From a bacterium HR17 (lineage in GTDB: Bacteria > Armatimonadota > Fervidibacteria > Fervidibacterales > Fervidibacteraceae): a stretch of 59,366 bases of DNA. A program made the translations under genes and the position numbers. Location: assembly GCA_002898575.1 (NCBI GenBank), contig BEHT01000022.1, forward strand, positions 1 through 59,366, in the 5' to 3' direction. This document shows, one piece after another, positions 50,993 through 58,991 of this stretch. The notes beneath the pieces are model-generated. The model saw only the letters and a program-made list of their open reading frames with translations, made no database searches and was not told where the DNA came from. How positions within the stretch are numbered: position 1 is the first letter of the stretch; every line of letters starts with the position of its first letter.

Positions 50993-51649
50993 TTACGGAA
51001 GGTTCTTCCACATGTTACGAGGTTGCAAAGTCATCTCGTAGCGAAGCCATCTAGCGTGACCGTCAAAGAAGGCGTAATTGGCGCCTTGCATGTGGCGCGT
51101 GTGATCAACGGGGCGAGCCCAAAAATGCATGTGCAGAACGGGCGTGTGAGTGTGATAAAGTGGGCAAGCGCGACAACCTGCCAGCGGAATTTCACCGAAC
51201 AAAATCATTTGCGCGGGATAGTAAATTTGCGCCAGCGTCCCAAACCAAGGGAAACCCCCAAAGTTTGGGTCGTTGGGGTCATTGGAAGTGCCCGAACAAA
51301 CATAGCCGTAACTGCCTGCGATGCCTTTGTAGCCCGCGCCGCCACCGTGTGATAAGCACTTGATCAACTCCCAATTGTTCAGGTAAGGTTGGACGAGTTG
51401 AAACCAAAGGGCGATAGCAGGTTTCGTCGCGTCCATGTTGGGATGCAAACATGCAGGCAGATACCAATCGTCCCAATCTTGGGCATACATGACTGATGCC
51501 ATGCCTAACTGGCGTATGTTGCTGAGGCAAGTTGTCTGCCGTCCTTTCTCACGCGCTGCTGAGAAAACGGGGAAGAGCAGGGCAGCGAGGACAGCGATGA
51601 TCGCAATGACGACTAACAACTCAATCAGCGTGAAAGCGACGCGACGCAT
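50993..51649 (-). CDS. Prepilin-like (type II pseudopilin) protein with H-x9-DG motif
   Basis: A 218-residue protein. [28 protein letters not shown] (in parts) is a class III signal: cleavage before the Phe of FTLIE, then a hydrophobic assembly helix. [21 protein letters not shown] and the C-terminal H-x9-DG ([18 protein letters not shown]) are typical of the expanded DUF1559-type family in Armatimonadota and Planctomycetota. ATG 51649 has GAGGAG 8 nt upstream. It would be an exported filament or surface subunit. The protein also has Cys pairs (CRACP). Confidence 0.92.
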
Positions 51650-51727
51650 AACTGTCACTCCTCTGCGTCAGAAATTTGTCGGCGGTTTAGTGGGGCGGGG
51701 CGCAAAGGGCGCCCCGCCGGTGCGTTG

Positions 51728-51991
51728 TTAGCCGACGGCAGCGAGGCGTTGTTCAATCGCTTGCTTAATTTCGTCGGTTGTCGGCAAGCGTTGGGCTTCA
51801 TGCCGAGAAAAGACCCTTTCACCGTTGACATAGACATCAAATTCGCCTTTGTCAACAGGCACAAGTGTCAGTTCCATGTCGCGGTTGAACTTCATTCCGT
51901 AGTCGCCCAGCAATTGGTTGGCGAGTTGAACTGCGTGCGGTTGATGACCGCACGGCACACAATATGTGATGCGAACACTCAATTTCGCCAT
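51728..51991 (-). CDS. SelW/Rdx-type thioredoxin-fold protein (Cys form)
   Basis: An 87-residue protein. MAKLSVRITYCVPCGHQP has the CxxC (C11, C14) at the place where SelW/SelT/SelH proteins hold CxxU. The Rdx fold follows: ELTLVPVDKGEFDVYVNGERVFS and LPTTDEIKQAIEQRL. It is likely a small redox protein. The Cys codons are TGT (C11) and TGC (C14). A perfect 8-bp hairpin (51934-51954, 5-nt loop) starts in codon 13 and contains codon C14 in its 5' arm. GGAGGTG lies before ATG 51991. The class II tRNA gene ends 39 nt upstream on the same strand, so both may share one transcript. A long frame reading back to 52693 crosses the tRNA and is not real. Confidence 0.87.
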   Translation of the reverse strand: MAKLSVRITYCVPCGHQPHAVQLANQLLGDYGMKFNRDMELTLVPVDKGEFDVYVNGERVFSRHEAQRLPTTDEIKQAIEQRLAAVG

Positions 51992-52030
51992 CAAGAAGCA
52001 CCTCCTTGCCAGTTTTTGCAACATCGCTTC

Positions 52031-52122
52031 AGGCGGGGCTGGGAATTGAACCCAGCCGGAACACTTGTTGCGTTCCGCCGTCGGGTTTGCAACCCGAGGG
52101 GCGCACCAGCACCTTCCCCGCC
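52031..52122 (-). tRNA. tRNA-Cys(GCA)-like gene with long variable arm and tRNA-Sec-like D arm
   Basis: A 92-nt tRNA on the minus strand. Acceptor GGCGGGG/CCCCGCC is 7 bp with discriminator T and no encoded CCA. Positions 8-9 are AA instead of the near-universal U8. The D arm folds as GGTGC-TGGT-GCGCC: 5 bp with a 4-nt loop, as in selenocysteine tRNAs. The anticodon arm is TCGGG-TTGCAAA-CCCGA, anticodon GCA. The variable arm is an 8-bp stem CGGAACGC/GTGTTCCG with an AACAA loop. The T arm is CTGGG-TTCAATT-CCCAG. GCA plus U73 are CysRS identity marks; the body is class II. It is either an odd tRNA-Cys or a tRNA-Sec derivative reading Cys codons. Confidence 0.92.
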
Positions 52123-57737: not shown

Positions 57738-58991
57738 TCAAGGCTGCAGGGACGGAAATTCAGCGTTGGGAATTTGTCTCCCCAAATCAGGCACAACTTT
57801 CCTCAGCAGAGGCTCAACTGCGCCTTTCAACTTCTCTGCCACTTCATCGCTGACAGGTTCTAAGCCGTGAGCGGCGATTGAGCAATTGCGTGCGCTAATT
57901 GCATGCTTTAACTCAGGGTTGTCCCATTCCTCACCGATTTCATCGCCTAAAGCCGCAAGCAATTCGTAACTTGTCTGCAGCGGAATTTGCACCTTTCCTT
58001 TCTCATTTCGGTAGCGCTCCAACTTCTCCTTCACGCTCTCGGGCACTTTGCTCATGTCAACATCGCTTGTGTCAATTTCGTGCTGATGCCAAAGTCGGAA
58101 CTGGGCAATCAACTCGCAGAGCCGATACAATCTTGCGACTGCATCCACAAACCGCTTTTCCTCAATTCGCCGCAAAGCATTTGCCCACAAGTCAACGAGC
58201 AACTCCTTGCAGAGCCGTTGGCTCAAATTCGGCGATTGCAAATTTCGTGCCAGTCTGTTGACCCAACCTTTGTTATCGGCGATTTGCTTTTCCGCCGATG
58301 ACCATTGTTGTATGATAGTTTTGTCAACGGCGTCAAAAGCCTCTTTTGCTTTGATGTGGTCAAAAGCGTCCCACGCTTGGTAGGCATCGCACAATTTCCT
58401 CAAACTGTCAAGTTGGGGAAAAAGTTGTGCAACTCTGTCAGGCGGAAATGGTCGCAAAAATTCCTCAAGGATTTGCCTCGCAGCGGGAAACTGCCATGCG
58501 TTGAACAGCCTCACAGCCTCAATGAGGCAGCGGCGAGCAAACAGTTCGTTGGGTCTCAGGCTCAAAAACTTCTCCGTTCCCGAGATAACCCTTCCGTTTT
58601 TGTCCCTTTCTCCTGCCACATAGACAACATCGGCACAATTTTCAGTGATGCCAGCGTAAAGAGCGCCTGCGGACATGGGTTTAGTCCCCGTTGTGTAGTC
58701 AACAGCGGTGTTAGTTGGTGCGATACCTTTTTCACACAACTTTCGGATGGCTTCAACGGCAGCCTCGTAAGCCTTTTGAACATCGTTTTCATCGCTAACT
58801 TCCACAAGGTCATAAGGTGGCAACTGAACCCTAAGTTCCTTTGCCGCTTGCTCAATGCGTCCCAAAGTCGCTTTGCTTTGCTGAGTTACGAGGAAGATAA
58901 CGAAATCGGGGTTGAACTTTTGGATTGACAAAGCGATGCCATGCTCAATTCCACTCCCAACCCCGACAGTGATGACCATGCCCTTAGGCAT
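57738..58991 (-). CDS. CARF-HEPN ribonuclease (Csm6-like, TIGR02710/Cas02710 family)
   Basis: A 417-residue protein. MVITVGVGSGIEHGIALSI begins a CARF Rossmann domain that includes the ligand motif VDYTTGTKPMSAGALYAG. A helical region follows, with the HEPN catalytic motif RNCSIAAHG (R-x4-6-H) near residue 375. In type III CRISPR immunity, cyclic oligoadenylate made by Cas10 binds CARF and switches on HEPN RNA cutting. ATG 58991 begins MPKGMVITVG. No cas10 or other cas genes are in view; they would lie beyond the right edge. It is less G+C-rich than the core genes. Confidence 0.88.
   Translation of the reverse strand: MPKGMVITVGVGSGIEHGIALSIQKFNPDFVIFLVTQQSKATLGRIEQAAKELRVQLPPYDLVEVSDENDVQKAYEAAVEAIRKLCEKGIAPTNTAVDYTTGTKPMSAGALYAGITENCADVVYVAGERDKNGRVISGTEKFLSLRPNELFARRCLIEAVRLFNAWQFPAARQILEEFLRPFPPDRVAQLFPQLDSLRKLCDAYQAWDAFDHIKAKEAFDAVDKTIIQQWSSAEKQIADNKGWVNRLARNLQSPNLSQRLCKELLVDLWANALRRIEEKRFVDAVARLYRLCELIAQFRLWHQHEIDTSDVDMSKVPESVKEKLERYRNEKGKVQIPLQTSYELLAALGDEIGEEWDNPELKHAISARNCSIAAHGLEPVSDEVAEKLKGAVEPLLRKVVPDLGRQIPNAEFPSLQP

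Follow-up and report, generated by a model that had tools for sequence, protein, structure and literature searches.

A second tRNA-Cys, real and conserved, with an ordinary identity but an unusual shape, is encoded in a 59,366-nucleotide stretch of DNA (the window) from an Armatimonadota MAG (3.15 Mb, 96% complete). It combines the complete bacterial cysteine identity set with a class II, tRNA-Sec-like body, and it is old and probably specialised. The usual assumptions are that tRNA-Cys is uniformly class I and that the tRNA-Sec shape exists for SelA and SelB. That the shape is kept in genomes without selenocysteine machinery means that it has another use, and carriers with and without this machinery are natural pairs for probing it.

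Sequence and fold of the gene

The gene (Table 1) is the lone tRNA within the window, called tRNA-Cys(gca) by ARAGORN. Read 5' to 3', it runs GGCGGGG AA GGTGC TGGT GCGCC CC TCGGG TTGCAAA CCCGA CGG, followed by CGGAACGC AACAA GTGTTCCG G CTGGG TTCAATT CCCAG CCCCGCC T. The Rfam tRNA-Sec model (RF01852) matches it over all 91 positions at 55.9 bits (gathering score 47), and the R1 model gives 91.8 bits, whereas it is missing from the 47 tRNAs that the ordinary tRNA model (RF00005) lists for the genome. The acceptor/T branch is 7/5, with 7 bp in the acceptor and 5 bp in the T stem; a 6/6 split (GGCGGG plus GCTGGG) has about the same computed energy for the window copy (-51.5 versus -51.3 for 7/5), and the relatives in G004 and G258, introduced below, fold as 7/5. 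The computed folding energy is 5.4 SD lower than for mononucleotide shuffles. A promoter scan found nothing. Every feature that the first-pass annotation had listed (GCA, U73, A8, a 5-bp/4-nt D arm, an 8-bp variable arm and 7+5 stacking) is present by sequence, ARAGORN and pairing; what it overlooked are two possible pairs past a bulged C, CC (52098-52099) with GG (52078-52079), which would extend the anticodon stem to 7.

Table 1. Features of the class II tRNA-Cys gene and the adjoining protein gene (window coordinates)
Feature	Position	Strand	Basis
Class II tRNA-Cys(GCA) gene, 92 nt, U73, CCA not encoded	52031..52122	-	ARAGORN, RF01852, R1 model
Acceptor stem, 5' strand GGCGGGG, with G2-C71 and C3-G70 (Cys identity set)	52116..52122	-	sequence, pairing check; set from PMC9976931
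A8 A9, no U8	52114..52115	-	sequence
D arm GGTGC/GCGCC, 5 pairs, 4-nt loop TGGT	52100..52113	-	sequence, pairing check
Anticodon arm TCGGG-TTGCAAA-CCCGA	52081..52097	-	ARAGORN, pairing check
U33	52091	-	ARAGORN
Anticodon GCA	52088..52090	-	ARAGORN
Variable arm, 8 pairs CGGAACGC/GTGTTCCG, loop AACAA	52057..52077	-	sequence; covariation in relatives
T arm, 5 pairs CTGGG/CCCAG, loop TTCAATT	52039..52055	-	sequence, pairing check
Acceptor stem, 3' strand CCCCGCC, and discriminator U73	52031..52038	-	sequence, pairing check
Shine-Dalgarno-like site AAGGAGGT of Rdx/SelW-like gene	52000-52007		
Rdx/SelW-like protein gene, CVPC in place of CxxU	51728..51991	-	Pfam PF10262 E 4e-18; TIGR02174

Distribution and conservation

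We searched 291 genomes of the phylum with a covariance model derived from four copies. Under this model genuine class II tRNA-Cys score 74-109 bits, tRNA-Sec mostly 52-69 and tRNA-Ser no more than about 43; because tRNA-Sec scores reach into the class II tRNA-Cys range (75.5 bits for the likely tRNA-Sec of G097), anticodons were read to sort the matches. The gene is found in nine of the 291 genomes: that of the window and eight others, namely G004 (same order), G258 (family f41) and six Zipacnadia of family f21 (G068, G097, G274, G275, G276 and G277). It was not found in G001-G003, but G001 and G002 reach a completeness of only about 60%. A single strict pattern, which by design misses C33, UCA and 8/5 forms, gave three matches in 84,980 species genomes, all of them Zipacnadia.

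Wherever enough sequence is available, the Zipacnadia copies sit between the same two divergent protein genes. This synteny spans genera, and the conserved neighbourhood indicates that the gene was inherited there and is not a recent arrival. The copies in G004 and G258 are placed among ordinary tRNA genes. Phage carriage was sought in IMG/VR: a strict pattern found no match, and a looser one returned two phage tRNA-Cys whose variable region is long but which are unrelated to the tRNA of the window. These are 92-nt tRNA-Cys(GCA) genes with a normal D arm and a variable region of about 21 nt (L302:986-1077 and L306:1993-2084), on contigs that both have rich tRNA sets.

Across the nine copies, 257 of 262 cells in the pairing table form pairs. 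Two-sided changes occur at 15 of the 27 compared pair positions, with every helix represented (2/7 acceptor, 2/5 D, 3/5 anticodon, 5/5 comparable variable-arm and 3/5 T pairs). Neither a standard-fold alternative nor relatives without a compensated variable arm, the two outcomes that the first-pass annotation had set against its own finding, emerged when the check was run: the stems are compensated, and the finding survived. All nine copies have the 7/5 branch and a T stem without a bulge, with pair 7-66 mismatched (G7.A66) in four copies, all from Zipacnadia.

The anticodon GCA, U73, G2-C71 and C3-G70, which together make up the bacterial cysteine identity set (PMC9976931), are kept in all nine copies, so that the window tRNA holds the set complete (U73, G2-C71, C3-G70 and G34 C35 A36). 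The serine set (G73, C11-G24, a large variable arm, R4-Y69 and G30-C40; PMC9976931) is partly present, the window tRNA having the long variable arm, R4-Y69 and G30-C40 and lacking G73 and C11-G24. A8 is common to the nine copies as well. Position 33 varies: U33 is retained in the window and Zipacnadia copies, and C33 replaces it in two families (G004:C84:57108-57199 and G258:C35:12252-12345). U33 is nearly invariant in tRNAs, C33 is very unusual for a decoding tRNA, and in these two copies it would hamper ordinary decoding.

Host genomes and the selenocysteine machinery

The window genome has one ordinary tRNA-Cys(GCA), on contig 47 (C47:6726-6798), near-identical to its counterpart in G002, a genome of the same genus. 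Contig 7 carries a true 8/5 tRNA-Sec(UCA) with G73, and SelB (409 bits, cut-off 242), SelA (581 bits, cut-off 268) and CysRS (508 bits, cut-off 340) are each present in one copy. The class II gene is thus a second tRNA-Cys in a selenocysteine-capable genome. The option that it was the only tRNA-Cys, and hence essential, which the first-pass annotation had left to a count of tRNA-Cys genes, falls with the ordinary gene. Its remark that the genome appears to make a selenoprotein is borne out genome-wide by tRNA-Sec(UCA), SelB and SelA, and its central proposal, that a class II body resembling tRNA-Sec bears a tRNA-Cys identity in a genome that has selenocysteine machinery, is supported; a crude scan of the window itself revealed no convincing selenoprotein gene. 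By pattern and BLAST no ordinary tRNA-Cys was recovered in G258 or G068. We attribute this to a probable assembly gap and rejected the class II gene as their sole tRNA-Cys, because the whole Leu(GAG)-Val(CAC)-Gly-Cys-Leu(TAA) cluster, which carries the ordinary tRNA-Cys elsewhere, is missing from both. In G275 the ordinary tRNA-Cys is cut by a contig end.

SelA, SelB and tRNA-Sec are all present in the window genome, G004, G258, G097 and G275. None of the three was found in G068 (92% complete), G274 (90%) or G276 (86%), all of which keep the class II tRNA-Cys; G277 is too incomplete to judge for them. The joint absence of three separate genes from three genomes is hard to blame on gaps, and the retention of the tRNA in these Zipacnadia indicates that it is independent of selenocysteine. 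Searches of the carrier genomes for additional partners found no second CysRS, each having one, and no second SelB, each having one full-length SelB or none.

These genomes also bear on annotation. The class II tRNA-Cys passes the Rfam tRNA-Sec cut-off even in G068, so a selenocysteine-trait survey based solely on the model would count such genomes wrongly. Many tRNA-Ser(TGA) genes in the phylum likewise exceed the cut-off (47-58 bits), and the Rfam model by itself therefore overcalls tRNA-Sec.

Comparison with known tRNAs

The window tRNA resembles bacterial tRNA-Sec (RF01852) in its long variable arm, its above-cut-off score, its A8, found in many tRNA-Sec of the phylum, and its 4-nt D loop TGGT, also present in the window genome's own tRNA-Sec. 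It differs in having an acceptor of 7 and not 8 bp, U73 and not G73, GCA and not UCA and a D stem of 5 and not 6 bp, and the genome holds a separate true tRNA-Sec. With ordinary class I tRNA-Cys it shares GCA, U73, the GGCG...CGCC acceptor ends and the 7/5 branch, but it has an 8-bp variable arm and a 5/4 D arm in place of the short variable loop and large D loop of class I molecules. Allo-tRNAs (8/4 or 9/3) are also class II tRNAs with an unexpected anticodon; unlike them, the window tRNA is 7/5 with U73 and has no serine discriminator G73.

The closest known kind is the selC* tRNA-Cys (Mukai et al. 2017, NAR 45:2776). As far as the selC* passages of a review go (PMC7609411), these tRNAs are tRNA-Sec-like, with U73 and either GCA or UCA; they have a modified 8/4 branch with a bulged A51a, adjoin selB* and cysS* in some orders, and are placed in Firmicutes, Thermodesulfobacteria, Nitrospirae and Proteobacteria. 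With selC* carrying GCA and U73 described in 2017, the 'unprecedented tRNA-Cys architecture' that had first been entertained no longer holds. Judged by those descriptions, the two kinds have in common a tRNA-Sec-like body with a long variable arm, U73, GCA and the status of an extra tRNA-Cys, and they may share ancestry. They differ in that the window tRNA is 7/5 without the bulged A51a, that selB* and cysS* are absent among its carriers, and that it occurs in Armatimonadota, outside the phyla given in those passages, and is kept in genomes without selenocysteine machinery. Because branch geometry, partner genes and a strict tie to SelB are not shared, we keep it apart from selC*.

With the variable arm set aside, the window copy is identical at 54/65 positions to that of G004, at 48/65 to that of G258 and at 45-50/65 to those of Zipacnadia, compared with 40/65 to its own tRNA-Sec. 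On these counts a recent duplicate of the local tRNA-Sec was rejected, and the 'duplicated tRNA-Sec' of the first-pass annotation is unsupported as a local event. Short as the sequences are, they speak for the class II tRNA-Cys of the phylum being one older lineage, separate from the local tRNA-Sec.

Proposed function and alternatives

We consider it probable that the gene provides a second, minor tRNA-Cys that is a substrate of the ordinary CysRS, relies on EF-Tu for delivery and reads UGC/UGU. The lone CysRS would recognise U73, G2-C71, C3-G70 and GCA, and U73 together with the 7-bp acceptor would exclude the molecule from the SerRS-SelA-SelB route. A 7-bp acceptor stem reportedly favours EF-Tu over SelB (Baron and Boeck, 1991), and the acceptor/T branch is 7/5 in class II tRNA-Cys versus 8/5 in the window genome's tRNA-Sec; the resulting 12-bp branch would permit EF-Tu delivery. 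Survival without SelB and the 12-bp 7/5 branch make EF-Tu the likelier route, although we infer the step from structure to EF-Tu. The tRNA-Sec-like core probably came from a tRNA-Sec-type ancestor, and may have been retained because the isoacceptor gains stability, modification or regulation unlike those of the main tRNA-Cys, perhaps under stress. Several points tell against the minor tRNA-Cys reading: six of the nine carriers fall in one clade, MAGs may miss genes, two copies have C33, four have G7.A66, and the nearest studied relative, in Desulfotomaculum nigrificans, is reported to be SelB-delivered.

The last point belongs to the main rival, in which a selC*-like tRNA is carried by SelB to selenocysteine UGA codons and Cys replaces Sec at low selenium. 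The D. nigrificans tRNA-Sec-like tRNA-Cys(GCA) reportedly bypasses EF-Tu and inserts Cys at UGA in this way (PMC11415595); the tRNA body of the window scores as tRNA-Sec, and five carriers (those named above) have tRNA-Sec, SelA and SelB. We regard this route as unlikely here, given three fairly complete genomes that keep the tRNA without any of these genes, the lack of an 8-bp acceptor, of the A51a bulge and of a second SelB, and the mismatch of GCA with UGA at the third base. A dedicated Cys-tRNA that does not decode, for example as a donor in tRNA-dependent biosynthesis or as a regulatory RNA, would suit the sparse distribution (9/291) and the C33 of two copies from two families, which is odd for a decoding tRNA; it is nonetheless improbable, as U33 is retained in the window and Zipacnadia and no partner gene recurs from one family to the next, the neighbours being Rdx in the window, tRNA genes beside the G004 and G258 copies and, in Zipacnadia, a different pair of protein genes. 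It is tentatively conceivable, as one joint claim, that an old, separate 7/5 lineage outside selC* left the selenocysteine system for a dedicated task, either condition-specific decoding or Cys-tRNA supply for non-ribosomal use; hints of this are the C33 seen in two families and the persistence of the gene where SelA, SelB and tRNA-Sec are missing.

Sense-anticodon tRNA-Sec are known, for example in Aeromonas salmonicida, so that GCA taken by itself is a weak argument against a tRNA-Sec. Charging with Ser or Sec, and insertion of either at Cys codons as by an allo-tRNA or a sense-anticodon tRNA-Sec, could be read from the long variable arm, G2-C71, R4-Y69 and G30-C40, which are also serine features (PMC9976931), and from the adjoining SelW-like gene, whose G004 relative uses UGA. 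Yet U73 replaces G73 in all nine copies, the GGCG...CGCC ends are those of ordinary tRNA-Cys, C11-G24 is absent, the branch is 7/5 and not 8/5, and charging by SerRS would mistranslate Cys codons throughout; we judge this reading highly improbable. Scarcely credible is a decaying or non-functional tRNA-Sec copy: the sparse occurrence, the lack of a copy in G001-G003 (two of them at about 60% completeness) and the four G7.A66 mismatches would fit, but covariation in every helix, fixed identity elements in nine genomes and synteny conserved across Zipacnadia genera would not.

Neighbouring genes

The Rdx/SelW-like gene of the window starts 39 nt downstream of the tRNA, and the hairpin in the spacer is little stronger than in shuffles (-10.7 versus -8.1, SD 2.3). 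This adjacency is seen only in the window: in G004 the two lie on different contigs, and in Zipacnadia it is absent. A protein with Cys in place of Sec next to a Sec-shaped tRNA-Cys invites a connection, but a functional tie was rejected on these grounds; the Rdx/SelW-like gene is probably outside the tRNA's system, and we provisionally treat the linkage as chance. The SelW-like (Rdx) gene of G004 (G004:C83, L115:1502-1738) has an in-frame TGA at the CxxU position (MKISITYCVS-U-GYMD...), which is clearly the form of a selenoprotein; G004 thus seems to produce a SelW-type selenoprotein, in contrast to the Cys version of the window organism. In G097, an EF-Tu-like match below the SelB cut-off (G097:C209:14121-15404, L228) has one TGA and one TAG in its frame and is possibly a broken second copy or an assembly error. 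Elsewhere in the window, both on the minus strand, are a pilin-like DUF1559 protein with an N-methylation motif downstream of the Rdx gene (50993-51658) and a CRISPR-associated CARF protein of the TIGR02710 family (57738-58991).
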